This document shows, piece by piece, positions 10,905 through 46,900 of a DNA stretch of 64,000 bases. The stretch covers positions 16,423,817-16,487,816 of the forward strand of contig NC_090699.1 of assembly GCF_040954835.1 (NCBI RefSeq). Direction: 5' to 3'. How positions within the stretch are numbered: the first letter of the stretch is position 1; the number at the start of each line of letters is the position of its first letter. The position numbers and the translations under genes are program-made. The notes below the pieces were generated by a model. It saw only the letters and a list, made by a program, of their open reading frames with translations. It was not told the origin of the DNA and made no database searches. The stretch is from Lepisosteus oculatus (taxonomy: Eukaryota > Chordata > Actinopteri > Semionotiformes > Lepisosteidae).

Positions 10905-13900
10905 GTAAGTTGTGACTTTTGTATTGAATTAACAATTTCAGGAATAACTTTTTTAAGTGTAATCTTTAAAATGAAACCAGTGAAGGCTGCTATGAAGCTG
11001 GAGTGCCTTAAAAAAAAAATATTTTAATCTCGGTCAGATGTTCATGGGACGATGCAGCTGCGAGAGCTCTGAATTTGCTCCCCCTACAAACAGAAACCCA
11101 CCGCATTTGTCAGTGCTACGTTTGTGCCGTTGAAAGCAGCGTTTGTACTGCTTTCACCCCTCGGGTACAGCGCCTTTTTTTTCAGAACGCGACACAGATT
11201 ACTCAACACCCCCCACGACGGCTATATCACCAGGGCGTTTCTCAAAAAGAGTAGGGGTGTAACCCCGGCATCCTGGCCAAATTTCCCATTGGCCCTTACC
11301 AGTCATGGCCTCCTAATAATCCCCCTCTATGAACTGGCTACATTACTCTGCTCTCCTCCCCACTGATCGCTGATGTGTGGTGAGTGTTCTGGTGCACTAT
11401 GGCTGCCGTCGCATCATCCAGGTGGGGCTGCACATTGGTGGTGGTGGAGGGGAATCCCCATTACCTGTAAAGTGCTTTGAGTGGATTGTCCAGAAAAGGG
11501 CTATATAAGTGTAAACAATTATTAATTATTAATTATTATTATATCTCGAAAATTGAGCTATATCTAAAAAACAAGAGCACCTCAGATGCTACTTTCAACA
11601 GCACAAGCCAGCACAGGCAGGGCACTAACAAATGCTTCTGGCATCACTGTTTGTGCTGTTTGTGGGGGGGCTCAGCGCGTGGACAGAGAGCGCTTTAGGA
11701 GAGGGAAGGGAGCACTCCCACCGCTACTCTTCAACGGTCAGGCTGCAGAGGTGGGGGAGAATCTCACCCCCATCTCCAACACTCCAACGTGGGAGGTCAA
11801 CACATCCATCACGGTCAGGACAGCTCGCCAGAGGCTGCTCTTCCCGAGACAGTGAAAGAGGTTTGGAGTGTCACGGGAAGCAATGACCCTCTTCTGCAGA
11901 CCTGTCCCTGAGCCTGTGTTGATCTTCTCCCTCACTGTGGGGTCTGCCCACACCCCCAGGGCCAGAAGCAGCTAGAGAGACAAGGGCCGGACAGACGATA
12001 AGAATGAAAGGGTTTCTGTGCAGGTGCAGGCACAAACACAGAAGCAGAGCCGATCGTTGTTGTGCCCTGTCTTCCCTGCCCTGCAGTCAGCCTCGCCGCC
12101 GCCACCGGCCACGTGCGCGAGTTTCACTTCGTGGAGAAGGCGCGGACGTGGGCGGAGGCCCGGAGGCACTGCCGGGAGGCCTTCACGGACCTGGCCACCC
12201 TGAGACACCACGGCGACATCCGGAAGCTCCTCGGAGCCGCCGCCTCTTCCTCCTCCTCCTCTTCCTCGTCTGCCTGGATCGGCCTGCACCGCGGCCCGCA
12301 GGCCTGGCGCTGGGCCGACGGGAAGCCCTGCGGGTTCGTCAACTGGAGGCGGGGCCTGTTCTGCGCCCGAGTGGACAGCCAGGGGGCCTGGGAAGACCGG
12401 CCGTGCTTCATGGGGGAGAACTTCATGTGCTCTACGGGTAAGGATCCCGGGGCGACGCTGTCACCAGCTCGCAGGCAGGAGGAGGCCTCTTCTTCCATCT
12501 GGCTCATCCAGCTGTTTCTTGTCTCTTATATGGCTGGACAGCTTGTTCCACACTCCCACCACTCTTTGTGTAAGGCTGCGTCTCCTGTTCTCAGTTTTAA
12601 TGATCCAATCTAGCAAAAGGTGAGCATCTTGTCCACCTTTCTCACCCTCTAGCACCTGGATTGCCTGCTATATCAGAAGACCGGAGGTGGTTGCTCCAGA
12701 GCAGCCGCCCTTTAAAGTTCTTTATTCAGTTTTAAGCCCCTCGTGCCCTTTAATTGCCAGTAAGGCTGGTGTCCACAGCAGTGCTCCAGTAGAAAAGCAA
12801 GCTCAAGCAAGTTCAAGTTTGTTTTCAGTACAATGAAGATAGATAGATAAGACTTTATTGATCCCGTAGGGAAATTGAAATGCTTACTTGCGTGTTCTCC
12901 TCACATGGGAGGCGACATCACAATTCTTGGAAACAGGAACATGGCAGCAGCTGTACTTTTAAACAGCGTTCAGATAGCGGCCGTGTGCTGGAAAAGTGAG
13001 GAGCCCCCCCCCCCAGACCCCCCGTTGGGGTCTGTAGGGGCCGCAGAACGAGACCAGTCCAGATCTGCTGCTCTTGTGAATGGGGACTGGGAATCAACTG
13101 CATGTCCCAACAGATTCAGTGGTTTCAGGTTTTGTTCTTTTCCTTCTAACATTTTTCAGCACAGCAATGCTGAACGCAGGGCTTGGTAAGTGAGTGTGTG
13201 TGGGTGCATGTCTCTCACCCCACCAGCCCCCTCCTCTCTCACCCTTAGAAAACCCCAAATCTCTCACACAGCACCCCATCTCTCACACCCCCAAACCCCC
13301 ACAGCACCCCAACTCTCACACCCCCAAACCCCCACAGCACCCCAACTCTCAGCCTCAGAGTTCCTCCTGTCTGAGCCTGTGTGTCTCTCTCAGACTCCAG
13401 CCAGGGCTCCAGGACCTACACCCTGATTGAGCAGAGCAAGACCTGGGCAGCCGCTCGAGATCACTGCAGACAGCAGCACACTGACCTGGTCACCATCAGC
13501 AGCCCCAGAGAGAACCAGGCAGTGAGGAAGATAGCAGGGGGCAGAGTGTTCTGGATCGGGCTGTTCAACAAGCCCTGGGAGTGGTCTGATGGGGGAAACT
13601 CATCGTTTCGACACTGGATAAGAGGAAATCCTGACAACAAACATAGAAATGAGACCTGTGTTGCTCTGAATTACCTGGGCATGCAGGACATGGACTGCAG
13701 CCTCTCCCAGTACTTCCTGTGCTGTAAAGGTGGGTGAGCTCTGGGGTGATCGGTGTGTTCAGGCAGCCTGCAGTCTGAGTCCAGGGCTGGGCCGTGGAGG
13801 AGAGCGAGCTCTGGGGTGATCGCTGCGTTCAGGCAGCCTGCAGTCAGAGTCCAGGGCTGGGCCGTGGAGGAGAGCGAGCTCTGGGGTGATCGCTGTGTTC

Positions 13901-16900
13901 AGGCAGCCTGCAGTCAGAGTCCAGGGCTGGGCCGTGGAGGAGAGCGAGCTCTGGGGTGATCGCTGTGTTCAGGCAGCCTGCAGTCAGAGTCCAGGGCTGG
14001 GCCGTGGAGGAGAGCGAGCTCTGGGGTGATCGCTGTGTTCAGGCAGCCTGCAGTCAGAGTCCAGGGCTGGGCCGTGGAGGAGAGCGAGCTCTGGGGTGAT
14101 CGCTGTGTTCAGGCAGCCTGCAGTCAGAGTCCAGGGCTGGGCCGTGGAGGAGAGCGAGCTCTGGGGTGATCGCTGTGTTCAGGCAGCCTGCAGTCAGAGT
14201 CCAGGGCTGGGCCGTGGAGGAGAGCGAGCTCTGGGGTGATCGCTGTGTTCAGGCAGCCTGCAGTCAGAGTCCAGGGCTGGGCCGTGGAGGAGAGCGAGCT
14301 CTGGGGTGATCGCTGTGTTCAGGCAGCCTGCAGTCAGAGTCCAGGGCTGGGCCGTGGAGGAGAGCGAGCTCTGGGGTGATTGTTGTGTTCAGAATCCAAC
14401 TGAAGGAGAGAGCTTGCTACAGACTCCCAGTATTGGTATAGAAGTGCCCATTGTCACTCTCTTGCAGGGCTGGCGAAGTTACCTTTACGATAACAATCTG
14501 ATTTGCCAGTAGACTTTATACAAGTTCTGCTAACTGAAATTAGACGTTAGATGTCGGGACGAAAGCGAAAATGACGGAGGCGCTCTGGAAGGCGGATGCA
14601 GCGAGTGCGCCCTTCAATAACTACAGTAGCGCACTCTGAGCTAGAGACTACGTAAATATCCGGACTACCGAAGAAATTACAAGGAACTGTTGCGTCAAGG
14701 GCTTCAGAGAAGAAACCGCTGTGTACGAATAAGACGTGTAGAACTCAGATTTGTTTTAATTCTTGGCAGTACTTTCGGTGAGTAGAGCAGAGTTAGGAGG
14801 GGATGTAACACACCGAAAAGCGGGTGAACAGGAAAGCTGTTAAAAGGAGCCGGACCAAGGGTGCTGTGTGCTGTTCCAGCGGGCGGGGCGGCGCCGGGAG
14901 ACTGCCAGCTGGTTGAAAAGAACAAGACGTGGACGAAGGCGCGCGGGTACTGCCGGCGGCACGGGGGAGAGCTGCTCACGGCGCGCGGCCAGGCTCAGCT
15001 CCAGGAGCTGCACTTCCGGCACTTCGGGCAGCTCGTGAGGGGGCCGGTGTGGATCGGGCTGTACCACGGCACGGAGAGCTGGCAGTGGGTCAGCGGAGAG
15101 AGGGCCAGCTATGCCAACTGGAAGACCCGGGTCTTCTGCGCCACCGCTGGTCCGGATGGGTACTGGACAGATGTCGTCTGTGACGAGCTGCACTACTTCA
15201 TGTGTTACACAGGTACAGTCACCCCCAAATCCCCACAGTACCCCAACTCTCTCACCCCCAAACCCCCCACAGCACCCCAAATCTCTCACCCACAAACCTC
15301 CACAGTGCCCCAACTTTCTCACCCCCAGACCCCCACAGCACCCCAACTCTCTGAGCCCCACACCCCCACAGCACTCCAGCTCTCTGAGCCCCAGACCCTC
15401 ACAGCCCCTCCTGTCTGAGCCTGTGTGTCTCTCTCAGACTCCAGCCAGGGCTCCAGGACCTACACCCTGATTGAGCAGAACAAGACCTGGGCAGCCGCTC
15501 GAGATCACTGCAGACAGCAGCACACTGACCTGGTCACCATCAGCAGCCCCAGAGAGAACCAGGCAGTGAGGAAGATAGCAGGGGGCAGAGTCTTCTGGAT
15601 CGGGCTGTTCAACGAGCCCTGGGAGTGGTCCGATGGGGGAGACTCCAAGTACCGATTCTGGCAGCGAAGACAACCAGACAACAAGGGCTTCAGGGAGGAG
15701 TGTGTGGAGCTGGACTTCACCGCCACAGGCAAGGGTCAGTGGAGAGACCAGGACTGCAGGACCAAACTCCCCTTCTTCTGCTACGAGGGTAAGACTCCAG
15801 CAACCCAATACCATCCAGTGAGCTTTGAAGGATTTCTAATGTTGACATAGATCTATCTGGATCTGAGAAAGGGTGGCAAAGTGGTACAGTGGGTTAGCAC
15901 TGCTGCCCTGCAGCGTGGGGCCCTGGGTTGCTGTCTGTGTGGAGACTGTAGGTTCTCTCCATGTTCACATGGGTTTCCAACGGGTCTCTGGTTTCCTCCC
16001 ACAGTCTAAAGACATGCTGGTGGGTTAATTGTCTACTGGGAAGATCAGTCCTGGTGTGAGTGTGTGTGTGTGTCTGTGTCTGTCTGCCGTGTCTGCACCG
16101 AGAGAGAGACAGACACCCCAACTCTGAGACAGTGCAGGAGAGAGAGAGATACCCCAACTCTGAGACAGTGTGGGAGAGAGAGAGACACCCCGATTCTGAG
16201 ACAGTGCAGGAGAGAGACACCCCGATTCTGAGACAGTGCAGGAGAGAGAGACACCCCGACTCTGAGACAGCGCAGCAGAGAGAGAGATACCCCAACCCTG
16301 AGACAGCAGAGGAGAGAGAGAGACACTCCAACATTGAGACGGCGCAGGAGAGAGACACCCGGACTCTGAGACAGTGCAGGAGAGAGACACCCAGACTGAG
16401 ACAGTGCAGGAGAGAGAGACACCCCGACTCTGAGACAGGGCAGGAGAGAGACACCCGGACTCTGAGACAGTGCAGGAGAGAGACACCCAGACTGAGACAG
16501 TGCAGGAGAGAGAGACACCCCGACTCTGAGACAGCGCAAGAGAGAGAGACACCCGGACTCTGAGACAGCACAGGAGAGAGAGAGACACTCCAACACTGAG
16601 ACAGCGCAGGAGAGAGAGACACCCCGACTCTGACACAGCACAGGAGAGAGACACCCCGATTCTGAGACAGTGCAGGAGAGAGAGACACCCGGACTCTGAG
16701 ACAGCGCAGGAGGGAGAGACACCCCGACTCTGAGACAGCGCAGGAGAGAGACACCCGGACTCTGAGACAGTGCAGGAGAGAGAGAGACACTCCAACACTC
16801 AGACAGCGCAGGAGAGAGAGAGACACTCAACACTCAGACAGCGCAGGAGAGAGACAGATACCCTGACTCTGAGACAGCCTGACCGCCCTGTCCCCTGCAG

Positions 16901-17461
16901 ACGTGAGAGACCTGGTGCTGGTGAAGAGGAGGCTGTCCTGGGAAGAGGCGCTGGACTTCTGCCGCTCGCGCCACACCGACCTCACCAGCGTGCTGACCGA
17001 GAAGGAGCAGGCCGCCGTTGCCCGCGGCGCCCGAGCCGCCCGCTCCGCCCACGTCTGGCTGGGCCTCAGGCAGAGCCGCATTTTCGGCTTCTGGTTCTGG
17101 GTGAACCAGGAGCCCATGGGATACCAGAACTGGGGTGCCCGTGGGGAGCCCCAGCTGGGCCGCCGGTCCAGCCCCTGTGGAGCCATGTCTGCTGTGGATC
17201 ACACCTGGACGGACAGGCCCTGCGAGGAGAGGCTGAGCTTCATCTGCTACAGAGGTACGGCCCCTCCAGCCGAGCTGCGGTCAGTTCAGTCTCAATTCGG
17301 AGGGACCGGGGGACGCGGCCCGGTCACAGATGCAGCTGGTGGCGTTGCTGGGTCCTGTCTGTGTGGAGCCTGTATGTTTTCCCTGTGTTCTCCTGGTGCT
17401 CCAGTTTCCTCTCACCGTCCAGAGAAATCCTGGGAGGTTAATTATCTTCTGAGAAAACTGG

Positions 17462-17506
<45 letters not shown>

Positions 17507-18231
17507 CCTGTGATGGACTGGTGTCCCGTCCAGTGAGTATCCTGCCTTGTGCCTGGTGCACAGCTCCAGCTCCCCCGTGGTCAGCAAATGGCTATGTGGG
17601 TAGTTGGATGGATGGATGCAAACTTCATTAACAGTTTAAAAAGCATACAGAAGTGCCTCCAGTTTCAATGCCCCAGTTTGTTCCCAGTTTCAATGCCCTC
17701 ACCTTCTCAGCTCTTCCCAGTGTGCTCAGTGCTTGCAGTAGTGCAGTTTGATCTGCAGGCAGCTGGGCAGCAGGGAAGGGTGTTAGTTAGTTCAGCCCAG
17801 GCCTTACAGCTCTGTTGATTAGGCTGTCAGTAGTGTAACAATCCCACATCGCTGCTGTCTGCCGTCACTAACAAGATGTTACCCGTGACAGTTTCATTTC
17901 ATCAGCCATGGCTGTGATCCTGGCAACCAGAGGGCATCAGGGGACGCTACAGGGGTGAGCACTTGAAACTAAGAGCGGGAGCCCTTACTTAACACACAGG
18001 GTGGTGGGAGTATGGAACAATTTGCCCAGTCATGTCGTTGAAGGCGATACCCTGGCTTCTCTCAAGAAACCACTGTATGAGATCGTGGGAAAAATGTTCT
18101 TCCAACGTGGATTGAGTGGGTGGTGGGACAAATAGACTCTCGCTTGCAACTGTTATTTAAGTGTCGCTGGAGGTGTACAGCTGTCTTTGAGTTTAATTCT
18201 CCAACCCTGTGTTTCCTCTACAGGTCACTAA
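10871..18231 (+). CDS. Multi-CTLD C-type lectin, gene 1 (whole gene, seven coding exons)
   Basis: The model joins 10871-10904, 12087-12437, 13394-13729, 14880-15212, 15438-15788, 16901-17254 and 18224-18231, giving 588 residues. The signal peptide forms across the first splice (MDKRNIFLLLAVSLAAATG). Five CTLDs follow, each in one exon with phase-1 borders at both ends, in the order A1-B1-A2-B2-C. No transmembrane segment is seen, so the product is probably secreted. Fish proteins of this type are usually annotated as macrophage-mannose-receptor-1-like lectins. A domains lack the Ca2+/sugar loop; B and C domains keep loop residues. The C-terminal tail found in lectin gene 2 was not found here. 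All junctions follow GT-AG and keep phase; the last tiny exon is the weakest part. Confidence 0.8.
11233..11545 (+). repeat. 5S-SINE body and tail, head missing
   Basis: It runs from 'gtaggggtgtaaccccggca' to the tail 'gctatataagtgtaaacaat' and a short AATTATT-rich end. It lies in intron 1 of lectin gene 1. Confidence 0.8.
12087..12437 (+). CDS. Lectin gene 1, CTLD A1 exon
   Basis: The domain reads HFVEKARTWAEARRHCRE, then AWIGL, WRWADG, NWRRGLFC, WEDRPC and FMCSTG. The four core cysteines and the WIGL motif are present, but no EPN/QPD loop. Just before WIGL is a run of nine serines coded by mixed TCC/TCT/TCG, an insertion not seen in the sister domains. Ends at donor gtaagg. Confidence 0.85.
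12538..12650 (-). mobile_element. LINE 3'-end fragment
   Basis: The minus strand reads QRVVGVWNKLSSH, the conserved end of CR1/L2-type pol frames. It lies in an intron of lectin gene 1. Confidence 0.6.
13394..13729 (+). CDS. Lectin gene 1, CTLD B1 exon
   Basis: The front half (SSQGSRTYTLIEQSKTWAAA through FWIGLFNKPWEWSDGG) is nearly identical to the other three B exons. The loop half is its own: GNPDN in the sugar-loop position, then DMDCSLSQYFLCCKG, with an extra cysteine next to the last core one. Acceptor ctctctcag, donor gtgggt, phase 1 on both sides. Confidence 0.85.
13736..14395 (+). repeat. 70-bp minisatellite, nine full units and a partial
   Basis: Units begin 'gagctctggggtgatcgctg' and repeat every 70 bases with almost no variation. 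The array starts within seven bases of the B1 splice donor and lies in the intron of lectin gene 1. Such homogeneity implies recent expansion or ongoing turnover. Confidence 0.95.
14396..14879. other. Unique-looking intron segment of lectin gene 1
   Basis: Between the 70-bp array and exon A2 no repeat family or exon was recognised. Confidence 0.3.
14880..15212 (+). CDS. Lectin gene 1, CTLD A2 exon
   Basis: Reads DCQLVEKNKTWTKARGYCRR, then VWIGLYHGTESWQW, YANWKTRVFCA, YWTDVVC and FMCYTG. Core cysteines and WIGL are kept; there is no EPN/QPD motif, so calcium-dependent sugar binding is unlikely. Phase 1 on both sides, donor gtacag. Confidence 0.85.
15438..15788 (+). CDS. Lectin gene 1, CTLD B2 exon
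   Basis: The front half matches B1. The loop half reads RRQPDNKGFREECVEL, then GQWRDQDC and FFCYEG. QPD followed by W-x-D is the arrangement linked to galactose-type ligands in CTLDs, so this domain is the best sugar-binding candidate in gene 1. Donor gtaaga, phase 1. Confidence 0.85.
15871..16085 (+). repeat. tRNA-headed SINE fragment in intron
   Basis: Contains 'gtggttagc'-like head (cagtgggttagcactgctg) and body 'tttcctcccacagtctaaag', ending in a TG run. Confidence 0.7.
16090..16880 (+). repeat. Degenerate minisatellite, about 31-36 bp units
   Basis: Around two dozen units of the form 'gagagagacaccccgactct' plus 'gagacagcgcag' fill the intron up to 20 bases before the acceptor of the fifth CTLD exon. 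Minus-strand frames over it are shadows of the repeat. Confidence 0.9.
16901..17254 (+). CDS. Lectin gene 1, fifth CTLD (C) exon
   Basis: Reads DVRDLVLVKRRLSWEEALDF, HVWLGLRQSR, NWGARGEPQL, then CGAMSAVDHTWTDRPCEERL and FICYRG. GEPQ sits in the loop position and WTDRPC is a canonical end motif. It is neither A nor B type and has no counterpart in lectin gene 2. Donor gtacgg, phase 1. Confidence 0.85.
17336..17618 (+). repeat. tRNA-headed SINE with TG microsatellite
   Basis: Body and 3' part of the family (gatggactggtgtcccgtcc, ctgccttgtgcc) around a TG run at about 17466-17506, ending in 'ggatggatggatg'. Confidence 0.75.
17985..18110 (+). mobile_element. LINE 3'-end fragment
   Basis: The plus strand reads 'RVVGVWNNLPSHVVEGDTLA'-like sequence followed by SLKKPLYEIVG, the end of a CR1/L2-type pol frame. 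Confidence 0.65.
18224..18231 (+). CDS. Lectin gene 1, candidate last coding exon
   Basis: After tttcctctacag the bases GT CAC TAA join the phase-1 end of the fifth CTLD to give CYRGH and a stop. A polyadenylation signal AATAAA follows at 18570-18575. A different, unseen 3' end remains possible. Confidence 0.45.
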
Positions 18232-18569
18232 CACAGGAGGAACCCCAGCCCAGACCCAGCAACAGTGCGGGGACACCAGCACCCTACTTTCAGTATCACA
18301 TGTGTAACATTTAAACACCCCTAAAAGCCAAATCACACGGAAGAGAGATGTCCAGCAAGCATTTCCAGGGATGGGTTGTTCCATGCTCCTGCAACACTTA
18401 GTGTAAAGCAGTTTCTCCCGTTCTCATTTTTAAACGGTCTTAATCCTTGTTTCTTTTCATTTGCATTGGGGACTGTAAGAAGGGAGGTCTTTTTTTTCAA
18501 GGGCGCCCCCTGCAGCGCCTCTCGCACACTCCATGTGCAGAAAATGAATATAAGATTTTATTGTACGTA

Positions 18570-18575
18570 AATAAA
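18570..18575 (+). terminator. Candidate polyadenylation signal, lectin gene 1
   Basis: AATAAA about 340 bases after the candidate stop codon, in an AT-rich stretch. Confidence 0.4.
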
Positions 18576-21010: not shown

Positions 21011-21026
21011 AAAATGTGTTTCCAAG

Positions 21027-26188: not shown

Positions 26189-27609
26189 TCACACTTCCTC
26201 CGCGTCGCCGCCCCCTGGCTGCAGGGGGCACTGTTGGAACTCCAGGGTCTGGGCGGCGGTGGCGGCGGCACCACCGGGGGACTCGGGCTCCCGCTCCGGG
26301 GACGGGGCGGGGCTGTCGGCGGCGGCGGCCCCGTTCTCCGGGGGGGGCTCCAGTCCCGCAGCGCCCCCAGCCTCCAGCGGGGCGGCGCTCTTGGCCCCCA
26401 AGTGGCTCTGCTGGTGGATCTTCAGGTAGTAGAGGCGGGTGAAGCTCTTGCCGCAGTGCTGGCAACAGTAGGGCTTCAGCCCCGTGTGGCTGCGCAGGTG
26501 CGTCTTGAGGATGCGCACGTCGCGGAAGTTCTTCCCGCACTGGGTGCAGTGGTAGGGCTTCTCCCCCGTGTGGATGCGCTGGTGCGTCTTGTAGTCGCCG
26601 GAGCGCGTGAAGCTCTTCCCGCACTGCGTGCACAGGTAGGGCCGCTCGCCGGTGTGGATGCGCAGGTGCTTGGTCAGGTCGCCCGACTGGCTGAAGCCCT
26701 TGCTGCAGAGCGGGCAGACGTAGGGCCGCTCGCCCGTGTGCACGCGCCGGTGCGTCTTGAGGTCGCCGGCGCGGCTGAAGCTGCTGCCGCAGTCGGGGCA
26801 GCAGTACAGCTTCTCGCCCGTGTGCACGCGCTCGTGGCGCCGCAGGTCGCCCAGGAAGCTGAAGCTCTTGCCGCAGTAGGAGCAGGAGTAGGGCGTCTCG
26901 CCCGTGTGGGTGCGCAGGTGCATGGACAGGTCGCGGGCCTGGGCGAACATCTTGCCGCACTGCTCGCAGCGGTGGCGCCGGTCGCCGGAGTGGAAGCGCT
27001 CGTGGGTGCGCAGGTAGCCCACGGTGTTGAAGCTCTTGTCGCAGTACTGGCAGCGGTAGGGCCGCTCGCCGGTGTGGATGCGGATGTGCGTGGTGAGCGC
27101 CCCCGAGTGGCTGAAGCCCTTGCCGCACTGGCCGCAGCGGTAGGGCCGCTCGCCCGTGTGGATGCGCTGGTGCCGCGTCAGGGAGCCCGACTGGCTGAAG
27201 CTGCGGCCGCACTCGTCGCAGCGGAAGAGCTTCTCGCCCGTGTGGATGCGCTGGTGCACGCGCAGGTTCTCCGCCCGGCTGAAGCTCTTGCCGCACTCGG
27301 CGCAGTGGTGCACCTTCTCGCCGGCGTGCGTCTTGCGGTGCTCGCGCAGCGCCGCCGGCGTGCCGCAGGCCTCCCCGCAGCGGGGGCAGGGGTGCGCCTC
27401 CGGCCCCTCGGGCAGCGGCCGCCCGCACAGGGCGCAGCCCCCGCCGGCCGGCGGCCCCTCGGGCGGGGGGTCTCCCGCCAGCCCGGCGCCGTTCGGCAGC
27501 TCCTGCGGGTGGGTCCTCTGCACGTGCTTGAGGAGGAAGAGCTCCGAGGAGAAGGAGAGGCAGCAGTGAGGGCAGGAGCGGCACTGAGGAGACAGATCAA
27601 CCCCCTCAT
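26189..27609 (-). CDS. prdm9: prdm9 last exon: proximal finger and 12-finger array
   Basis: Begins after ctctcctcag with DEGVDLSPQC, then the proximal finger. The array starts with the atypical HPCPRCGEACGTPAALREHR and ends YCCQHCGKSFTRLYYLKIHQ. Linkers are mostly TGE(K/R)P, with one SGDRR. The finger helices differ from each other (RAENLRV, QSGSLTR, TVGYLRT, FLGDLRR, RSGDYKT), so the array is not a homogenised minisatellite. The tail is Ala/Gly/Pro-rich and acidic. Confidence 0.88.
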
Positions 27610-30216
27610 CTGAGGAGAGAGAGACGGGAGAGAGTCAACACCCTGGACACTGCACTGAGAGAGAGGGGTTCATACAGACACACTGACTGACTGGACACTC
27701 CAGTACATTAACACTGCACTGAGAGAGAGGGGTTCATACAGACACACTGACTGACTGGACACTCCGGTACATTAACACTGCACTGAGAGAGAGGGGTTCA
27801 TACAGACACACTGACTGACTGGACACTCCAGTACATTAACACTGCACTGAGAGAGAGGGGTTCATACAGACACACTGACTGACTGGACACTCCAGTACAT
27901 TAACACTGCACTGAGAGAGAGGGGTTCATACAGACACACTGACTGACTGGACACTCCAGTACATTAACACTGCACTGAGAGAGAGGGGTTCATACAGACA
28001 CACTGACTGGACACTCCAGTACATTAACACTGCACTGAGAGAGAGGGGTTCATACAGACACACTGACTGACTGGACACTCCAGTACATTAACACCGGACG
28101 TCTTCAGGTCTGTCTGCTCTTACCTTCTGAGCGGCACTTCCTGTCCCACAGCCGGTCCCACAGGAGGCCCAGCTCTGCCGCGTACCGGTCGGAGTACCAG
28201 ACGCGCAGCTCGCTGCCCGGGGCGATGGGCCTGCAGGCCCGGAAGAAGACCTTTCCCTGCCACTGGACCGCCTCCAGGTTCTGGTCCTGCTCGTCCCGGG
28301 CGCACCTGACAAACCTGCCGAGAGGACGAGGGAGACACGGGGGGTCACGGGCGAGCTGTAGCCTTGGGACCCGGGAACGAGCAGACCGCGCCGCGCTAGG
28401 CCCCGGTCTCACCTCAGCCAGTTGGCGCTCTCCTCCCTCTCCCCGTCGATGAACTCGAACCCGCCTCCCTCCTTCGAGATCTGAGGGGACAATGTCAACA
28501 GCTCAGGAAGTGAGAGCGAACAGCCCGGCCTTTCAGAACAAAGCCTCTCCCAGCCTGTACCCACACTTTCATCTTCCAGACCGTTCGCAGACCAAACGGA
28601 AGAATAGAGTTAAAAGTTCAGAATATAGTGCTCATATAATGTTTTTCACCATTACATCCCACACACAGCATGCAAACACACCATTAAGGTCTCATTTAGA
28701 ATACTTGGGACAGTTAAGGTCACCATGTTATATAAAAAGATGTTGCTACTCTGGATTGAGATCAACCAGATACATTCTGTGGCTGAATGAAAGGTCCTCC
28801 TCTCACAAAGTTAAGGAACTGAGCCTCTTTAGTCTGAAAGGAGTGTCCTACAATGACAGACTGAAGGAACTGGGTCTCTTTAGTCTGAAGGGAGTGTCCC
28901 ACACTGACAGGCTGAAGGAGCTGAGTCTCTTTAGTTCGACAGGCTGTGAATTGTGAACTGAGCTCGACAGGCTGAGTGGGCTCCTCTCATTTGTTAGCAT
29001 TTTTTATGTTCTCATTGTGGTAAAAGGATTAATTTAAAGCAATAGAATACGAAACTGCTTTTCAAATATTAACATCAGGCTTATTTCCTTAAAAAAATCA
29101 AAGTCTTGAGCCTAACCCCCGCCTCACCCCCATGTCAGAGGGCACCCAAGAAAATACACCCCTCCATCCTGAAACGTCAGGGCTGAGACCAGGAGAAGGG
29201 GACTCGGTCACCCGCTGAAGGAAGAGCTTGCCTGGGTATGAGCTGGGTACGAGCAGACGTCAGCCACAAGCAGGGCCGTGAAACCTGCCGCCGGCGCTGC
29301 TGGGAAGGGGCTGGAAGGAGCGACTCACCACCCAGGAGTGCGCGCTGCTCAGGGCCTCCTCCTCGCTGGCGGGCTCCCCCTCGTAGGGCCCGAAGTACAC
29401 CCCGCGGGGGATCTCCGCGTCCCGGTTGAAGACTCCCGGGGGCTCCAGGCCCAGCCCGGCGGGCAGGGTGAGCCGCGCCCGGTGCGCCTGGCCCGGTTCG
29501 GCGGGGCAGTTCCGGGCCACCACGGCCGAGCCCCAGGCGTCGCAGCGGTCGCCCAGCAGGGCCTGGCACTGCCCGCACACTGGGGGAGAGGAAACAGCAA
29601 CGCGTCAGGACACCGGGGAAGAACCAGCAGCAGGGCTCTACCGGACAACAATCCCAGGGGCGGGTAGTGGCCGGCACCGTCTGGGGGCATGACCCTCTCA
29701 GGCACCGGCACCACGAGCACTGTGGTCCAACGGGTTCTGGTCCAACCTGGATCGGTTCGCCCGCGCCGGGGAGCTCGGCACCAGGGCTGTAAGGACCGAT
29801 GGGACACCCTTACCTGTCTTCGGAGCGTCCGAGGGTCCCTGCGGGGCACGGGGGCAGTCCGGCTTGGTCCTGCGGGTGCCGGTGGGTGCCAACTGGCGGC
29901 CCGGAGCGTGGGCTCTCTTCCGGCCGCCGCCACTGTCCCCGCCCACCTGCTCCTCTTCCTCTTCCTCCTCCTCCTCCTCCTCCTCCTCTTCCTCTTCCTC
30001 CTCCTCCTCCTCTGTCTTCAGGATGAACGGAGAGCCGGCAGCACCGGGAGGGTCGTCAGAACCGGACGCCACGTTGTGGATCAGGACTGGGTCGTGTCTC
30101 TCTGCTCCTGCTCCTCCGCCCTCTTCTTCTTCCTCTTCCTCCGTTGGCTCCTCTTTGATGCGGACATACGTGTCGTCCTCCATGAGGAAGAGCGCAGATT
30201 CGCTGGCGCCGTTCAT
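26189..30216 (-). CDS. prdm9: PRDM9, PR/SET histone methyltransferase with zinc-finger array (beta type)
   Basis: Minus-strand exons 30216-29814, 29579-29329, 28480-28413, 28314-28124 and 27609-26189 join with correct phases to 777 residues. PRDM9 methylates H3K4/K36 and its fingers place meiotic crossovers in many vertebrates. Order: acidic N-terminus with VRIKEEP; CGQCQALLGDRC knuckle (about 136-147); PR/SET with FGPYEG (Tyr200), SANWLRFVRCARDEQDQN and RVWYSDRY (Tyr281); the diagnostic proximal finger CPHCCLSFSSELFLLKH; then 12 C2H2 fingers. By alignment to mammalian PRDM9, Tyr276 and Tyr357 are kept but the Tyr341 position is Phe265 (VFFRAC). No KRAB or SSXRD precedes SET; an in-frame TAA lies 15 bases before the chosen ATG. 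This combination matches fish PRDM9-beta, which probably does not direct recombination. Confidence 0.88.
27640..28095 (+). repeat. 63-bp minisatellite in prdm9 intron, about seven units
   Basis: Units 'cactgcactgagagagaggg' with 'gttcatacagacacactgac' and 'tggacactccagtacattaa' repeat with only rare changes, one unit lacking an eight-base 'tgactgac'-type step. Confidence 0.95.
28124..28314 (-). CDS. prdm9: prdm9 SET exon, C-terminal half
   Basis: Encodes RFVRCARDEQDQNLEAVQWQ, KVFFRACRPIAPGSELRVWY and SDRYAAELGLLWDRLWDRK. The Phe in VFFRAC replaces a catalytic-site tyrosine; VWYG of mammals is VWYS here. Acceptor ctcggcag, donor gtaaga. Confidence 0.88.
28413..28480 (-). CDS. prdm9: prdm9 SET exon, short middle exon
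   Basis: 68 bases encoding ISKEGGGFEFIDGEREESAN and WLR, matching mammalian [20 protein letters not shown]. Phase 0 in, phase 2 out; acceptor cccctcag, donor gtgaga. Confidence 0.85.
28690..28945 (+). mobile_element. CR1-like LINE C-terminal piece with three 51-bp units
   Basis: Reads LEYLGQLRSP, then three copies of the LSLFSLKGVSHTDRLKE-type unit. This copy shows where the 51-bp satellite comes from: the end of the LINE pol frame. Located in a prdm9 intron. Confidence 0.75.
29329..29579 (-). CDS. prdm9: prdm9 exon: zinc knuckle and N-terminal half of SET
   Basis: Starts after ctctcccccag; encodes VCGQCQALLGDRCDAWGSAV, LTLPAGLGLEPPGVF, IPRGVYFGPYEGEP and SSAHSWV, then donor gtgagt in phase 0. 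The FGPYEG Tyr and Gly needed for catalysis in mammalian PRDM9 are both present. Confidence 0.88.
29814..30216 (-). CDS. prdm9: prdm9 first coding exon, acidic N-terminus
   Basis: ATG at 30216 starts MNGASESALFLMEDDTYVRI. Two glutamate-rich stretches follow, the second a run of about 21 Glu (DNA 29950-30012), each beside a sumoylation-type motif (VRIKEEP, ILKTEEE). An acceptor at about 30,389 (ctggcccccag) probably starts the exon, leaving a 5' untranslated part. No KRAB is encoded. Confidence 0.78.
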
Positions 30217-36770: not shown

Positions 36771-36914
36771 ACAATGCAAGCCAAGATTGGAAATGGAAGC
36801 AAAACAGAAAAACAATTTACACCATAAATGGAATGTCTGATGGATAAAATGAGCAATCTCAAAATTCACTACAAAATCAATTGGCGCTACAAGAATAATA
36901 ACATAAACTAGCAG

Positions 36915-38104: not shown

Positions 38105-38210
38105 CAGCATGCGTAGGCTGCAAAGGAACAAGTAGATTTATTCCGTGCTGAAAAGAGAAGAAAGAAAACACAATGTTTCGGGCGTGGAGCCTTCTTCAGG
38201 TGTGAAATCA
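38105..38210 (+). repeat. Dispersed repeat end ('ggaacaagtagatttattcc')
   Basis: The block with 'gtttcgggcgtggagccttc' and 'ttcaggtgtg' recurs at about 38,790-38,870 (reverse), 48,075-48,150, 60,690-60,740 and 61,440-61,500. Such ends resemble Penelope-like elements, but no coding part is here, so the family is uncertain. Confidence 0.4.
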
Positions 38211-38904: not shown

Positions 38905-39320
38905 CTCGGGAGAGAAACCGTTCTGCTACCGCACCGCGAAGGAGGCTCTGTCGTTTGGCTGCCGTGAAAAAAAATCCAATCAAATTCACATTAGGTAGAG
39001 AGAGCGTGTCGCTGCTCTTAGCTTGGGAGATGTTTCAGCGCATTAGGACACCTGGAAAAACATCTGGTAATCCACACAGCAGAGAGAGACTGTTCTGCTG
39101 TTCCGGTGCGGGAAGAGTTTTCCCGATTTAGGAGCACCGAAACCAAATCGGCTCACCCGCACAAGAGAGACAAGTCTGCGGATGAACGTTTTTTTCAGAA
39201 CCTCAGGACACCTGAAAACACATCACCGCATTCTGCTTCTGCCAGTGAGAGGAGAGTTACAGCATGTTGATTCATCAACAGAAACAATTCGTCAGCAGCT
39301 GATCGACACGAGAGAATGAC
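38905..39320 (+). pseudogene. C2H2 zinc-finger pseudogene remnant
   Basis: Decayed pieces of a finger array are legible: a linker GEKPFCY near 38,910, GHLEKHLVIHTAER near 39,045, CGKSFPDLGAPK near 39,105 and FFRTSGHLKTHHRI near 39,190. They fall in different frames, with at least two frame changes, and lack most second cysteine pairs. It resembles the array at 58.6-59.7 kb and is most simply a dead copy of that family. Confidence 0.7.
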
Positions 39321-39419
39321 CAGAGCCGCAGGGCTGTGGTCCTGAAGTCTAGTGCCATCGCAAGCCTTCTAGCCAAACACGTCTTCCCATTCGGAGTCAC
39401 AGATCCTATCATGGCAAGA

Positions 39420-39540
39420 AACAGGCCCAAGGCAGGGTACACCCTGGATGGGACAACAGTCCTTCACACGGCACACACACACACCAATTTCTCCAGAAAG
39501 CCACAGCTATCTTTGTGGAGTTTGCATGTTCTCTTTCCAG
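39420..39540 (-). repeat. tRNA-headed SINE fragment
   Basis: Marks 'ggcagggtacaccctggatg' and 'gtggagtttgcatgttctc', interrupted. Confidence 0.55.
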
Positions 39541-39589
39541 CTTCTACAGTTAATAAAGGCATTTATAAAGGCACGCCCAGCCCTGAATC

Positions 39590-39780
39590 CGCAGAGAGCC
39601 AGTACAGAAGGTATATTAAACATCTTTTCAATTTTATTTTTCATGAATTCAAGGATCTCATCCTGCCATGTCCAGAGAGAAGTCAGGGTATCGGCTGCAA
39701 CAACATGGCTGGGCAGCTTGTTCCACACTCCCACCACCCTTTGTGCAAGAGAGGGCCGTCCATTCTTGGTTTTTAGTGCT
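39590..39780 (-). mobile_element. LINE 3'-end fragment
   Basis: The minus strand reads MVGVWNKLPSHVVAADTLTS, a clear end of a CR1/L2-type pol frame. Confidence 0.65.
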
Positions 39781-39914
39781 CTTCCACATATTTTCCCATC
39801 TGTGCCTCTGGTTGGTGATGCTCTGGCCCAGGTTCTTCCAAAGGTGACTTATAATTGGTCAACTGGTATTCCCATACGGACTGGACAGGAGGCTGGGGGA
39901 TGGGGCAGGTGGGG

Positions 39915-40245
39915 TGATTTCAATTCCATTCAATTCAAGCTTTATTGTCCCCCAGGGGAAATTTGTTTCATGGCACGGTCAAACACAACACAATGACAAA
40001 TAAACACCACCAAAAGGGAAGAGAATACAGTAGTGTTACAGGAAAAAAGAAACAAGAGACAAGGTAGTGACTTTGCATTGTTTAAGAGTGTGATTGCAGT
40101 GGGGATGAAATATTTCTGAGTCGGTTGGTTGTACACCTGGGGGCACTGGGGGGAATTCGCGATGGAGGGGGTGAAACACATACACTCCCTGATGCTTTTG
40201 GCTTTCTTAGTCACCCTCTGTTTGTTAAGCATACTGAAGTTGATT
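39915..40245 (+). repeat. Dispersed repeat with LINE-tail-like start
   Basis: Starts 'caagctttattgtcccccag', as in the related copy at 59,885. No coding sequence. Confidence 0.4.
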
Positions 40246-40914
40246 TGAAATCTGGGACTGCTGCTGCGAAGCGAAGCTCAGGCAGGGCTGAGCCCAGAAA
40301 GGGTTAAAGCCCTGCAGGGCCTCAGGACATGGTTGCTTTATGTAAATCCCAAAACAAGCAAAGGCTAGTGTAGCAGTGTGGAGCAAAGACAGAGACCACA
40401 TCGCCCCTGAGCACAGGTAAGACTTTGATCTGTCCCTTCAGTGCTGGGGTACAGGGCTGGTGTGATCTGATCCTCCTCGGTTCAGATCCCAGCCCAGTTT
40501 CGGATCGAGGGTGGAAACACAGCACGATCTGCTCTGCTCACCACCAGAAACATCCGCCCTACAGGAATCTGCATGGGGTTGGACGTGCTGGAAAAGACCA
40601 ACGTGAGCTGTCAGCGATGGGTGGGGGGGTAGCTCAGCTGCTGAGCGTAAGGGGGACTTTGTCAAACGTTTGTGCAATGCTTGTTCAAATGCACCCCTGG
40701 GGTATCAGACTGAAACAGGGGTGTCTCTCTATGACGGGTCTGTCCAGCTCAGAGATGCAGACTGGTGTTTGTATACAGGATTTATCAGAACTGGAACCTA
40801 GAACGTGTTAGATCAGACTCGCTCCCTCTGCGTGGAGCATCGTTAGAGCTGGGCCCCAGTCGGTGCTGTCCTGTAACCTGCTGTCGTGTTACACTCCATG
40901 CAGGGCCGGCAGTA

Positions 40915-40951
40915 ATGGAGCAGAGCAGACTGATCACCCTGGTACTCGCCG
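40915..40951 (+). CDS. Lectin gene 2, signal-peptide exon
   Basis: Twelve codons (MEQSRLITLVLA) and one base, then donor gtgagt. An acceptor-like ccatgcag at about 40,902 suggests an upstream untranslated exon. Confidence 0.8.
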
Positions 40952-43900
40952 GTGAGTAGAATCATCGAGACCCGTTGTATCCCTTCAACCATTTTCTAAC
41001 CATTTCTCCCAATTCAGGGCCGTGGGGGAGCCGGAGCCTATCCCAGCAAGCAACAAGCACGAGGCAGGGTACACCCTGGATGGGACGCCAGTCCATCATG
41101 AGTCCAGCCCATCAAAACAATACAAAGAATCAACACAAACTAAGAATTCAGGACAACAGCGCTGCAGGAGATCAGAGAGTTATTTTACCTCCTGTGAGCG
41201 TGAGATTGCAGAGGAGATAAAAGAGCTCCTGAGTCTGTTAATGATACACCTGGGGACACAGAGGCAATTACATTGTTGAACTGCATTGGCCCCATTGTGA
41301 ATTCTGCTCGCTCTCGGATGTTTAGTAATAAGGCGCTATACATCCACAGATTAACTTCTGTCCTCCTCCGGGTGGCTGCTGTGCTCCGCAGGGCTGTGCG
41401 CAGCGACTCTCGCCCACAACAGGAAGCACTACTACATCAGTCGCCCCCTGCCCTGGGATCAGGCCCGGAGCTACTGCCGGCAGACCCACACTGACCTGGC
41501 CGTGGTGGAGGACGGCAGAGAACTGGGGCAGCTCGTGCGGGAGGCGGGGCCAGGGGCCACCGCGAGGGCCTGGATTGGGCTGCAGCGCGGGGAGATCGAC
41601 TGGCGGTGGGCCAGCAGGGCAGCGGTCAGCTACCACAACTGGAACCATTACCTGTTCTGTGCCACCATGAACCCGCAGGGGACCTGGGAGGACACGGAGT
41701 GCGACAGGAGCTTCCCCTTCATGTGCTACACCGGTAAGAGGCTTCGGCTGAGACCCAGGTCCAGGTTCCCAAAGATGACACTGGAGACCCAGATCCAGGC
41801 TCCTCAAGGTCAAATCTCCATACTTGCATTTCTGAAAGTCTTACACTGATAGGCTGAAGGAACCGAGTCTCTTTAGTCGGAAGGCAGTGTCCCACACTGA
41901 CAGGCTGAAGGAACTAAATCTCTTTAGTCTGAAAGGAGTGTCCTACACCGACAGGCTGAAGGAACTGAGTCTCTTTAGTCTGAAGGCAGTTTCCTACACT
42001 GACGGACTGAAGGAATTGAGTCTCTTTAGTCTGATGGGAGTGTACCACACTGACAGACTGGAGAACCAAGGACTCTCTCCTATCTGAGTCTGTGTGTCTC
42101 TCTCAGACTCCAGCCAGGGCTCCAGGACCTACACCCTGATTGAGCAGAACAAGACCTGGGCAGCCGCTCGAGATCACTGCAGACAGCAGCACACTGACCT
42201 GGTCACCATCAGCAGCCCCAGAGAGAACCAGGCAGTGAGGGAGGCGGCTCTGGGCAGAGTCTTCTGGATCGGGCTGTTCAACGAGCCCTGGGAGTGGTCT
42301 GATGGGGGAAACTCCACAGTCCGACACTGGGTAACATTACAGCCCAACAATCTTCTAAACGATCAGAAATGTGTGGTGTCCACTTCCCTGGGCTGGTACG
42401 ACATGGGGTGCAGCACCAGCTACAACGTCCTGTGCTGTACAGGTCAGTCTCCTGGCTGCTCCACTTGTAAAGCCTATATTGAACTATGTATTTGCCTTTT
42501 CCTGCTAACAGCGTATGCTAGGTTTCAGTGTTGGAAAATGTGGAATTTGATTCAGTTCATTTTGCCTGAGGTAGGGATAGCTGGCTGTAACAGAGCAGGG
42601 ATCATGTGAAACCCCTGCACACGTGCACCTCTTAGTAGCAGAGGTAGAGGTTTCTCCTGGTAGCCTGATCTGGTCAGATGTCAGAAGCTAAGGGCTTGGT
42701 CGGCACTGAAATGAGAGACCTCTAGTCCAGCGTCCCCCTCAATCAGAGGTTCTCCAGCCCCAGTCCAGCATCCCCCTCAATCAGAGGGTCTCCAGCCCCA
42801 GTCCAGTGAGTCTTACAGGTCCCCCTCAATCAGAGGGGCTCCAGCCCCAGTCCAGTGAGTCTTATAGGTCCCCTCAATCAGAGGGGCTCCACCCCCAGTT
42901 TAGTGAGTCTTACAGGTCCCCCCTCAATCAGAGGGTCTCCAGTCCTGATCCTAGAGAGGCCCAGTCCAGTAGATTACCATTAAATCTCCAGTTTCTAACA
43001 TATGAAACAATGAAATAATTCTAAAGTGCTTAATCAGACAGGTAATTTGCTACAGTAGTACCACAGTACTATAGTCATTTAGAGATCATTTACAATCTAA
43101 GTACTCTTCAGATCTCAAATACACAGCCCTTAACTGAACAGACTACTAGGTTGATTCATCAGTACTTACAGGCATTGCCAATCTTTAGAAAGAGTTGATC
43201 TATAACTGGACTTTGGATATCTAGGACCAGGTCGAGAAAACCAGGTGGCTGCTGTAAGTGGTGTTGGGAGTTCAGTAGGGGGCGCTCTTCCCTCTAGACC
43301 AGAATATCCAGAATTTGTTTCCCAGTATGGCGATGAGGGACACTGTGTGGTAGGCAGTGCTCACCCATCAGAGGAGATGTTATGAAAAGGTCCTGACTGT
43401 GCTTGGTCAACGGAGGTCCCATGACTGCTTGCAAAAGTCCCCCTGGCTGAAGCCCAGTCTTGAACAGTCTGTCCTCCCTCAGGTTCCCCATTACTGTTCT
43501 GGGGCCACAGTTTCTCTCTCCTCCCCCCGATCAGCGTGCTGGGAGGAAGCTGTGTGTCACCCAGGTGGGGCTGCACTGGAGCAGGACTCCCTCTGGAATG
43601 AAAGGCACTATATAAACATAAGGAACAACCATTATTAAAGCTTTCATCGATGGTGGCAAAAGCCATGCAAAGATATTGTGTAGGGTTCAAAGCCATGTAG
43701 AGGTGTCAAAGGGTTCAAAGGTCATGTATAGGTGTCAAAGGGCTCAAAGGTCATACGGTATACGGTTATGAAGGGCTCAATGGTGATGCTCATCCAATTG
43801 GCGTGTTATTGATTTCTGTTCCAGCCAACAGCTCAGCTCCCATCACACAGAGGTGCCAGGTGGGGAGCGTGACGAAGACGTGGCCCGAGGGCCAGGCCTT

Positions 43901-46900
43901 CTGCAGGAGAGCGGGCCGAGACCTGGCCACAGTCCGCAGCCCGGCTGAGGCCCAGCAGATCTCCCAGAGCTACCCGAACGTGTGGATCGGACTGTACTAC
44001 AAGCGGCAGGCCTGGCAGTGGGCGGACGGGCAGAGCCTGCTCTACGCCAGCTGGCAGACGCAGGGCTTCTGCGCGGCAGCCGACGCCGAGGGGTACTGGC
44101 ATGACGCGGCCTGTGAGCAGGAGCTGTCTTTCATGTGCTACACAGGTACGGCGGAGCGCCCGGTGACACCAGCCATTCGCAAGGTGGAACGTGGGACAAA
44201 CGTTCCCTCTTTCGTCATCGTCTCGTGGGGACTTTATCTTTAAACATTGCTTCTTGCCACACTGCCGAAAGAGCCGACACTAGGCTTCAACAACATGACT
44301 CACCAGCTTCCACACTCCTGCAACAGTCTGCGTAAAGTAGTGCCTTCTGTCCTGATTGCAGGATTTCTTGAGAGGACTCAGGGTATCAGCTTCACCAACA
44401 TGGATGGGATGTGTGATCCACACTCCCACCACCCTTTGTGTAAAAAATAATCATTGTTAATTCTGAAGCACTCCTCTGGGTAGAATAGAAGACTATTAGA
44501 GAAACTGATACTAATATTCAAAATCCTCAAAGGCATCAGCCTTTGAGGATTTTGAATATTAGTATCAGTTTCTCTAATAGTCTTCTCTGTTCAAGACCGA
44601 CATGCTGCCTCAGTTTCTGCAGCATGTAGGTGTAGGGCACTCCCTTCAGACTAAAGAGACTCAGTTCCTTCAGTCTGTTAGTGTGGGACACTCCCTTCAG
44701 ACTAAAGAGACTCAGATTCTCCAGCCTGTCAGTGTGGGACACTCCCTTCAGACTAAAAAGACTTGGTTCCTTCAGCCTGTCAGCGTAGAACACTCTTCTG
44801 ACTAAAGAGACTCGGTTCCTTCAGCCTGTTAGTGTGAGACACTGCCTTTAGACTAAAGAGACTTGGTTCCTTCAGCCTGTCAGTGTAGAACACTCTTCAG
44901 ACTAAAGAGAGTCAGTTCCTTCAGCCTGTCAGTGTAGAACTCTTCAGACTAAAGAGACTCGGTTCCTCCAGCCTGTCAGTGTGGGACACTCCTTTCAGAC
45001 TAAAGAGACTCGGTTCCTTCAGCCTGTCAGTCTGGGACACTGCCTTCAGACTAAAGAGACTCAGTTCCTTCAGTTGGTCAGTGTGGGACACTCCCTTCAA
45101 ACTATGCATCCTAACATATTTTGTTGCCTTTCTAATTGCTTTCCTACATTGTCTAGAAGAATGAAATGAGGTGTCAACACAAACACTCTAGTCTCCTCTA
45201 TAAGTCTACCTTCGTGCAAAACCCTACACTTATCTTGTCTTAAAGTCTATAAAAAATCTTTTTGAATTTCATCTTCAGCCGCTCTCCTCTCTCACCCCCA
45301 AACCCCAACAGCACCCCAACTGTCAGCCTCACACCCCCTCCTGTCTGAGCCTGTGTGTCTCTCTCAGACTCCAGCCAGGGCTCCAGGACCTACACCCTGA
45401 TTGAGCAGAACAAGACCTGGGCAGCGGCTCGAGATCACTGCAGACAGCAGCACACTGACCTGGTCACCATAAGCAGCCCCAGAGAGAACCAGGCAGTGAG
45501 GGAGGCGGCTCTGGGCAGCGTCTTCTGGATCGGGCTGTTCAACGAGCCCTGGGAGTGGTCCGACTCAAGTCATTATGACTTCAGAAACTGGAAGAAGGGG
45601 GAGCCAAGTAACTGGGGTAACAGCGCGACCTGTGTGACTCTGGATCTGAGTCCTGGAGCCCAGGGCCAGTGGGGGGATGAGCTCTGTACCAATATCCAGC
45701 CTTTCTTCTGCTACCAGGGTGAGTTCACTAGCACAGCTCCGTGAAATTACAAGCGGTTTCTGCCATGGTTCAAGAATTTGAAATTCACTCTGTTATATTA
45801 GGAAAAATAACTTGGCCAGTAAAGATGTTCAGAGTAAAAATGCTTTAAGAATCAGTGCTGCTTCCTCTCCTGTAGTACACTGAAGAACTGGATGTCAAAG
45901 AGAGAAATGATCTGTTCCCTCTGCTGTAGGACACTGTAGAGCTGGACACAGAGAGCTGATCTGTTCCCTCTGCTGTAGGACACTGTAGAGCTGGACACAG
46001 AGAGCTGATCTGTTCCCTCTGCTGTAGGACACTGTAGAGCTGGACACAGAGAGCTGATCTGTTCCCTCTGCTGTAGGACACTGTGGAGCTGGGCACAGAG
46101 ACATGATCTGTCACCTCTGCTGTAGGACACTGTGGAGCTGGACACAGAGAGCTGATCTGTTCCCTCTGCTGTAGGACACTGTGGAGCTGGACACAGAGAG
46201 GTGATCTGTTCCCTCTGCTGTAGGACACTGTGGAGCTGGACACAGAGAGGTGATCTGTTCCCTCTGCTGTGGGACACTGTGGAGCTGGACACAGAGAGGT
46301 GATCTGTTCCCTCTGCTGTAGGACACTGTGGAGCTGGACACAGAGAGGTGATCTGTTCCCTCTGCTGTGGGACACTGTGGAGCTGGACACAGAGAGGTGA
46401 TCTGTTCCCTCTGCTGTGGGACACTGTGGAGCTGGACACAGAGAGCTGATCTGTTCCCTCTGCTGTGGGACACTGTGAAGCTGGAGACAGAGACATGATC
46501 TGTCCCCTCTGCTGTAGGACACTGTAGAGCTGGACACAGAGACATGATCTGTCCCCTCTGCTGTAGGTCACTGTGGAGCTGGACACAGAGAGGTGATCTG
46601 TCCCCTCTGCTGTAGGACACTGTGGAGCTGGACACAGAGAGGTGATCTGCTCCCTCTGCTGTAGGACACTGGAGCTAAAGAGTGAAGAGAGGTGTAGCTT
46701 GATCACTGTTTTAAAGCAACACCCCAGAATGTTCAATCTAAGGCTTGAACTACTCAGCGATCAAGATCAAAGCCCAAGAAAGAAAATTAATCCTAAAACC
46801 TCCTTATAAAAGATGATCATTTCAATTTAGTGTGAGCAGTACCACAGAGAAAAGCCAAGCACTTGGAAAGAAGACACCAATGATTTTCATTAAAAAAGGA

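Follow-up and report, generated by a model that had tools for sequence, protein, structure and literature searches.

Gene conversion that leaves one region behind is a process already known from other genes. In the human red and green opsins, conversion keeps the paralogues alike while the functionally different exon 5 stays diverged (PMC3924837), and for bovine CEACAM32, which escapes concerted evolution, the authors propose natural selection (PMC7042247). Among fish lectins, Fugu and zebrafish possess soluble dual proteins with repeated C-type lectin-like domains (CTLDs), which were at first regarded as mannose-receptor paralogues (PMC514892). The window analysed here, a 64,000-nucleotide stretch of the Lepisosteus oculatus genome (C4:16423817-16487816), carries two multi-CTLD lectin genes, named W1 and W2, and the lectin case appears to be a clean example of this process: the B domains of these genes are nearly identical over their front half and strongly different behind it. 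We think it probable that gene conversion keeps the B fronts alike while the loop half escaped, with selection perhaps contributing.

W1 consists of seven exons and 588 codons that encode a signal peptide and the CTLDs A1-B1-A2-B2-C. Its stop lies two residues past C, which leaves no room for a membrane anchor, and the gene is complete with its signal peptide and five CTLDs. W2 encodes a signal peptide and A1-B1-A2-B2, plus one or two candidate tail exons. Every CTLD of both genes is a single exon with a length divisible by three and GT-AG borders. All seven window exons submitted to Pfam match Lectin_C (PF00059) with 47-77 bits (cut-off 22.6); of the two outside that set, W2 A1 and W2 A2, the A1 exon is supported by tblastn and splice sites. 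A protein search of the genome (1.2 Gb, 813 contigs) returned 206 candidates, of which 150 were scored, all of them CTLD matches. Further relatives on C4 are gene a (15.82 Mb), gene b (15.95 Mb, minus strand) and gene c (15.97 Mb), so that C4 holds nine front-sharing B exons across five genes, and one gene lies at 41.59 Mb on C6. For gene c, the sequence retrieved beyond its A2 showed no B2 or C exon. The comparison set comprises the 11 B exons and 12 A exons of W1, W2, a, b, c and the C6 gene, and four further stretches on C14 and C18 serve as controls. C14 holds 119 of the 150 scored matches, and the B exons of two of its genes (L022 and L023) are recent copies of each other (dS, the divergence at silent sites, 0.03-0.08).

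Frequent conversion beside a diverged functional stretch would liken these genes to the red and green opsins and to the divergence peak of Teshima and Innan. In the opsins, however, homogenised introns lie on either side of exon 5, whereas the lectins have homogenised DNA on one side, and an island bracketed by homogenised flanks is not seen, with the C exons of genes a and b as a partial exception. Also unlike the opsins, tandem domains of a single protein are among the exchange partners, and the boundary falls within an exon. In CEACAM32, whole exons escape in one gene; in the lectins the escape concerns half exons, is seen in every one of the five genes that have two B exons, and leaves the other half of the domain homogenised. 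W1, which stops right after its last CTLD, would be soluble like the Fugu-type proteins with their repeated CTLDs, but those proteins, a phylogenetic group of their own, are described with two or three CTLDs, against five in W1 and four in W2. Tandem CTLDs are shared with the mannose receptor family (group VI), and a B domain compared with PDB sequences, gene a B2, matches PLA2R (E=1.6e-31) and its relatives best. The known group VI members are given at least eight CTLDs (PMC514892), unlike W1, which is complete with five. No paper on half-exon conversion in lectin domains stood among the literature matches listed, judged by title or start of abstract. Distinctive here are the half-exon unit, the combination of tandem-domain and multi-gene partners, a mirror pattern in the A2 domain, and the repeat of the pattern at two chromosomal sites.

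The identity step inside the B exons

The four window B exons differ at 14 of their first 196 bases and at 16 of the next 19. Near-identity extends from the intron end to codons 66-71, and thereafter 37-60% of bases differ. Maximum-likelihood change points fall at codon 69.0 for W1B1-W1B2, 65.7 for W2B1-W2B2, 70.7 for W1B1-W2B1 and 66.7 for W1B2-W2B2, with likelihood ratios of 58.7-166.2 over eight comparisons that include these four. Within genes, the change point lies at codon 65.7 in W2, 67.7 in b, 69.0 in W1, 72.7 in a and 76.0 in C6, and the support intervals are without overlap in eight of the ten pairs of genes; that the change points differ between genes suggests several conversion events. 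A GENECONV-like permutation of the longest run, which assumes equal rates in both exon halves and counts as support alone, gives global p=0.0002 for the W1 pair and 0.0004 for the W2 pair. It reaches global p<0.05 in 23 of 55 pairs, all five within-gene pairs included, and every significant run lies inside the first 222 nt of the exon. An earlier reading of the letters alone, the sequence-only reading, had described four B exons with nearly identical fronts and intron ends and a step near WEWSD, and had proposed a GENECONV-type test; the exons are present with canonical splice sites, the step is sharp, and the test bears it out.

Identity continues upstream of the exon. The last ~30 bp of the upstream intron are common to the four window B exons, with two differences that both occur in W2B1, and three of the four share more intron, to about -80 or -141. 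Across the whole comparison set, the upstream intron ends resemble one another among the C4 exons other than cB1, the B1 exon of gene c, and again among the C6 exons, but not from C4 to C6. A smooth conversion polarity from the intron is rejected as the main pattern, the front bins differing by 1-10% before a jump to ~40%.

The step is equally present at silent sites. In all five genes with two B domains, the fronts show 0-4 silent differences at 43-44 sites (dS 0.00-0.10), whereas dS between the backs runs from 0.84 to saturated; in the C6 gene, the fronts have 0 silent differences at 44 sites and the backs a dS of 0.84. Third positions that differ between B1 and B2 number, in the front versus the back, 2/66 versus 21/47 in W1, 5/66 versus 30/47 in W2, 5/66 versus 24/52 in a, 3/66 versus 34/50 in b and 0/66 versus 23/48 in C6 (Fisher p 2.4e-6 to 8.4e-14 over the five genes; 4.8e-8 and 1.7e-10 for the window pairs). 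Between C4 and C6, 21-28 of 66 third positions of the front differ, so that nothing holds the silent sites of the front fixed. Two five-CTLD genes on C14, near copies of each other, have unhomogenised B1-B2 fronts, with dS 0.67-0.69 and dN (divergence at amino-acid-changing sites) 0.50-0.52.

The relative age of the domains comes from their A neighbours. In a tree of the 12 A exons, six A1 and six A2 separate, C4 and C6 together, with support of 100/99, and a clade of 6A1+6A2, the two A exons of the C6 gene, is rejected by the approximately unbiased test (p-AU 0.00097), as it is again when two C14 rows are added (p-AU 0.0012). The doubling of the A-B unit most likely predates the C4/C6 split, and B1 and B2 would then be as old as that doubling. 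If they are older than the split, the near-identical fronts must have arisen later and separately in C4 and in C6, which points to gene conversion. The two B exons of the C6 gene share a common stretch of 487 bp at 96.9% identity, including ~262 bp of intron, and their fronts resemble each other more closely than paralogues of the age given by the 12-exon tree should, the mark of concerted evolution. Its further marks, tract-like boundaries and a mosaic phylogeny, appear in the change points and in the rejection of the gene-a pair in the tree of the fronts, described below.

Exchange across the cluster and the mirror pattern in A2

According to the sequence-only reading, the fronts follow the gene. 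The signature on which this rested does split the four window exons, with VRKIAGG in both B exons of W1 and VREAALG in both of W2, but the rule is confined to a patch of ~11 bases and is broken by gene a, which carries KIAGG in B1 and EAAQG in B2; gene b has EAAQG in both. Elsewhere in the front, the 4 within-gene pairs and the 24 between-gene pairs diverge about equally per bin, a comparison that leaves cB1 out of both groups. The bin at nt 132-154, which holds the signature, is the exception, with 0.091 within and 0.235 (24% differences) between genes. The front tree rejects a grouping of the two gene-a exons (p-AU 0.0017) and neither recovers nor rejects the W1 pair (0.11) or the W2 pair (0.08). 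A clade of all six B1 is rejected at p-AU 5.8e-47 with C4 and C6 tested together, and much of this value, we think, stems from the C4/C6 split. The claim that the front half is converted is supported, since neither of the two outcomes named by the sequence-only reading as refuting it appears: the B1-only clade is rejected and the step is sharp. Conversion confined within each gene is rejected by the similar within- and between-gene divergence outside nt 132-154.

A DNA search with the W2 B1 front finds at least 29 places in the genome (common words being skipped, the counts are lower bounds). Nine are on C4 at 89-100%, every one within the five C4 lectin genes; of those elsewhere, two on C6 reach 74-77%, and 18 on C14 are weaker or short. 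As all 89-100% matches of this search sit in the C4 lectin genes, the idea of a mobile front cassette dispersed through the genome is rejected. Among the C4 fronts, cB1 is the least homogenised. Fronts follow the cluster more than the gene, and exchange is cluster-wide.

A mirror image of the B pattern, absent from the sequence-only reading, occurs in A2. Among W1, a and b, the back of A2 is homogenised (dS 0.06 in three pairs), whereas its front has a dS of 1.5 to saturated and a dN of 0.60-1.13; the change points fall on residues 55-57, where WIGL/WIGM stands. Overlapping blastn alignments (340 and 396 bp for W1-a, 231 and 327 bp for W1-b) trace the common stretch of these two comparisons from the middle of A2 across the short intron to the middle of B2. 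In W2, the A2-B2 intron measures 1219 bp and A2 is not homogenised. Since the A2 back and the A2-B2 intron are homogenised along with the B2 front, the front half as such is not the unit of homogenisation. The C exons of genes a and b (L010 and L011) and the ~350 bp that follow them share 94.5% of 694 bp and appear to be another homogenised or recently duplicated block; the C domains of gene a and W1 match at 57% in protein.

The divergent loop half and its explanation

Behind the step, the window exons end as the sequence-only reading described, with DMxC...LCC(K/T)G in B1 and GQW(R/G)D...FFCY(E/Q)G in B2. Its broader statement that these halves follow position stands in part. The CC ending is found in six of six B1 and none of five B2 exons, and DNA sequences reject a back clade of W1B1+W1B2 (p-AU 0.028), whereas protein sequences do not (0.41). 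The DNA tree of the backs joins W1B1 with W2B1 (83/85) and these with aB1+cB1 (86/94), but places bB1 outside the B1 group and pairs 6B1 weakly with 6B2 (78/85), a pair that is lost under a stricter cut of the backs and not rejected (p-AU 0.29); the B1 clade of backs is neither recovered nor rejected (p-AU 0.15, 0.48, 0.36). Grouping of the backs by position is weak on this evidence.

The change points (codons 66-76) lie in the CTLD loop region, upstream of a proline triplet at codons 79-81. The proline is invariant in 11 of 11 B exons, with eight triplet forms around it (NPD, QPD twice, QPN twice, EPS, DPD, EPN twice, EPR and SPD). EPN is described as the mannose type and QPD as the galactose type (PMC514892), and a second, WND-like motif, which together with the triplet marks Ca-dependent sugar-binding CTLDs, is altered in several B exons; the B domains may bind sugars in this way. 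The mean number of distinct residues per full column is 1.74 in the front (66 columns) and 4.47 in the back (45 columns). An AlphaFold model of W1 B2, built on 11 rows, places a strand at 53-58 and the next element, also a strand, at 88-93; with a mean pLDDT of 47.6 it is too poor for a fold search, so only the order of strands and helices is used.

In the nine C4 backs, site model M2a beats M1a (twice the log-likelihood difference 11.3, p=0.0035), with 26% of sites at omega 2.8, and none of 120 null simulations reaches 11.3 (95% point 7.9, largest 10.2). Our site-model code holds relative branch lengths fixed, and the backs are near saturation. The nine C4 fronts give p=0.70, and their third class has an omega of 1.0, so that its site list carries no meaning. 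The statistic becomes 19.1 without the codons that flank gaps and 8.1 without the first nine codons. These results suggest that selection for loop difference is plausible, if fragile. GC content at third positions (GC3) is higher in the front than in the back in both C4 and C6, but likewise in the unhomogenised B1 of C14, and GC-biased conversion cannot be diagnosed from it.

Under our favoured explanation, an old doubling of the A-B unit would have given each gene two B domains. Non-reciprocal copying from one B exon to another, both inside a gene and from gene to gene over distances of up to ~0.65 Mb, would then keep the intron end and the first 66-76 B codons nearly identical, and in three genes (W1, a and b) it would also have covered the A2 back half and the A2-B2 intron. 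The loop region with its EPN/QPD-type triplet would have escaped, remaining uncopied for so long that its silent sites diverged or saturated. It may evolve faster, perhaps favoured to differ in ligand, and so have fallen below the similarity that conversion needs; alternatively, the tracts may end where they do because copies of the loop half were removed by selection. We infer conversion as the molecular process, and the domains may bind different sugars. What the data show is the step, both over all sites and over silent ones, its recurrence in the C6 gene, the greater age of the B domains, the exchange across genes and the A2 mirror.

Several points weigh against this explanation. Fourfold sites alone, small in number, give p<0.05 in three of five genes, with 0.072 for W1 and 0.28 for W2. 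When the two C14 rows are added to the A tree, the A2 clade is kept (100/100), but 6A1 falls beside the A2s (83/84) and the A1s no longer come out as a clade (p-AU 0.062 against one). The introns downstream of the B exons are unrelated, which makes the step one-sided, and homogenised DNA brackets the divergent half only where genes a and b share C exons. In A2 it is the back that is homogenised, and protection of the ligand half is no general rule. The trees of the back halves are weak. Single omegas are below 1 (front 0.50 and back 0.62 with IQ-TREE, 0.32 and 0.57 with our own code), and the M2a statistic falls to 2.5, against a null 95% point of 7.9, when both codon sets are removed. For the sequence-only suggestion that the sugar-loop half was selected to differ, the support is suggestive yet fragile, with the M2a result in its favour and the trimmed test and the single omega against it. 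All data come from one genome.

A purely neutral escape is possible, though we lean away from it. The faster-changing half would have drifted below the similarity required for conversion and never been copied again, with no selection for difference. This account fits the sharp, one-sided step and the A2 mirror, where the unconverted half is the faster-evolving front, equally well, and a single back omega below 1 agrees with it; the better fit of M2a to the back, and residues beside an invariant proline that vary into eight triplets in 11 exons, speak against it. A recent partial-exon duplication, in which all exons received the same front segment in a single copying event, would deliver front and intron end as a shared block. 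We regard it as improbable, given that several events are called for by the end points that differ between genes, the graded front similarity with its gene-specific patch, the separate C6 pair with an intron end of its own and the A2 mirror, and that every exon retains one uninterrupted frame.

Miscopying of repeats between loci during assembly might be suspected where tandem repeats adjoin several tracts, but the copies have their own differences, different flanks and open frames in 11 of 11 B exons, and such an artefact is very unlikely. Strong constraint on the front at the protein and the silent level, for example by splicing signals and without any copying, is scarcely credible: the front protein is indeed well conserved, but the third-position differences between C4 and C6 contradict silent-site constraint (0-5 within genes), the C14 fronts have diverged, and the intron ends are alike inside each of C4 (except cB1) and C6 and not between them.

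Gene conversion with an escaped loop half, if correct, makes this cluster a compact natural experiment on how gene conversion is halted within a domain: five genes, spread over two chromosomal sites, have the same exon half homogenised, the end points varying slightly around the loop start, and the adjacent A2 exon offers the mirror case. Whole-domain trees of such lectins mix two histories, and the front half of such a domain tells little about its age or ligand. A doubtful extension is a germline layout of 'constant frame, variable loop', in which conversion, perhaps seeded by minisatellites of the introns upstream of the B exons, would renew one scaffold segment, made up of A2 back, intron and B front, throughout the cluster while the loop halves are shielded and diversify, the layout having arisen or persisted separately at the two chromosomal sites. 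A single protein would then combine a common frame with several sugar sites, each evolving independently.

Feature coordinates, minisatellites and neighbouring genes

Table 1. Features of the two lectin genes, in window positions.
Feature	Position	Strand	Remarks
W1 signal-peptide exon	10871..10904	+	ATG, GT donor, in frame with A1
W1 CTLD A1 exon	12087..12437	+	splice sites, Pfam Lectin_C
W1 CTLD B1 exon	13394..13729	+	front homogenised to ~13596, back divergent from ~13597; change point codon 69.0; Pfam
W1 CTLD A2 exon	14880..15212	+	front divergent; back from ~15050 homogenised with genes a, b; change point residue 57, dS
W1 CTLD B2 exon	15438..15788	+	front homogenised to ~15640; back divergent
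Homogenised block W1/a/b (A2 back - intron - B2 front)	15050..15645	+	overlapping blastn alignments
W1 CTLD C exon	16901..17254	+	splice sites, Pfam
W1 last exon with stop	18224..18231	+	
W2 signal-peptide exon	40915..40951	+	
W2 CTLD A1 exon	41392..41733	+	splice sites, tblastn
W2 CTLD B1 exon	42107..42442	+	front homogenised to ~codon 66
W2 CTLD A2 exon	43825..44145	+	not homogenised with other A2
W2 CTLD B2 exon	45368..45718	+	front homogenised to ~codon 66
W2 candidate tail exon	47850..47938	+	splice sites, open frame; further candidate 50114-50213
Gene signature patch, W1 B1	13528..13538	+	same patch: 15572-15582, 42241-42251, 45502-45512
33-bp minisatellite before W1 B1	13267..13351	+	also 15219-15405 before W1 B2
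51-bp minisatellite arrays	41843-42060 before W2 B1; 44609-45104 before W2 B2	+	

An array lies within 300 bp upstream of seven of 11 B exons and of four of 16 other CTLD exons (Fisher p=0.061, with copies that are not independent). The absence of an array at cB1, the least homogenised C4 front, speaks for the minisatellite as an initiator of conversion, and the homogenised aB1 and bB2, in whose short introns no array was called, speak against it; an intronic initiator is a weak lead. A 70-bp minisatellite at 13736-14392 (9.4 copies, 98% matches) starts a few bases past the W1 B1 splice donor. The W2 A2-B2 intron holds a perfect 48-nt inverted repeat with 4 nt between its arms (44487-44586), adjoining the 51-bp minisatellite.

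Between W1 and W2, a PR/SET-domain gene occupies 26189-30216 on the minus strand (limits by eye). Its PR/SET exon (28125-28313) has its best PDB matches in PRDM9 (E=1.4e-17), and a downstream open reading frame (ORF) contains some ten zinc fingers of the C2H2 type. In some animals, the position of recombination hotspots is set by PRDM9. Near the lectin genes, an ORF at 2540-3376 (+) encodes an AIG1/GIMAP-type GTPase (Pfam AIG1, E=2.3e-38). A C2H2 ORF at 58096-59784 (+) has 11 fingers with an 84-bp period, and a second 84-bp array runs from 63594 to the window end (64000).

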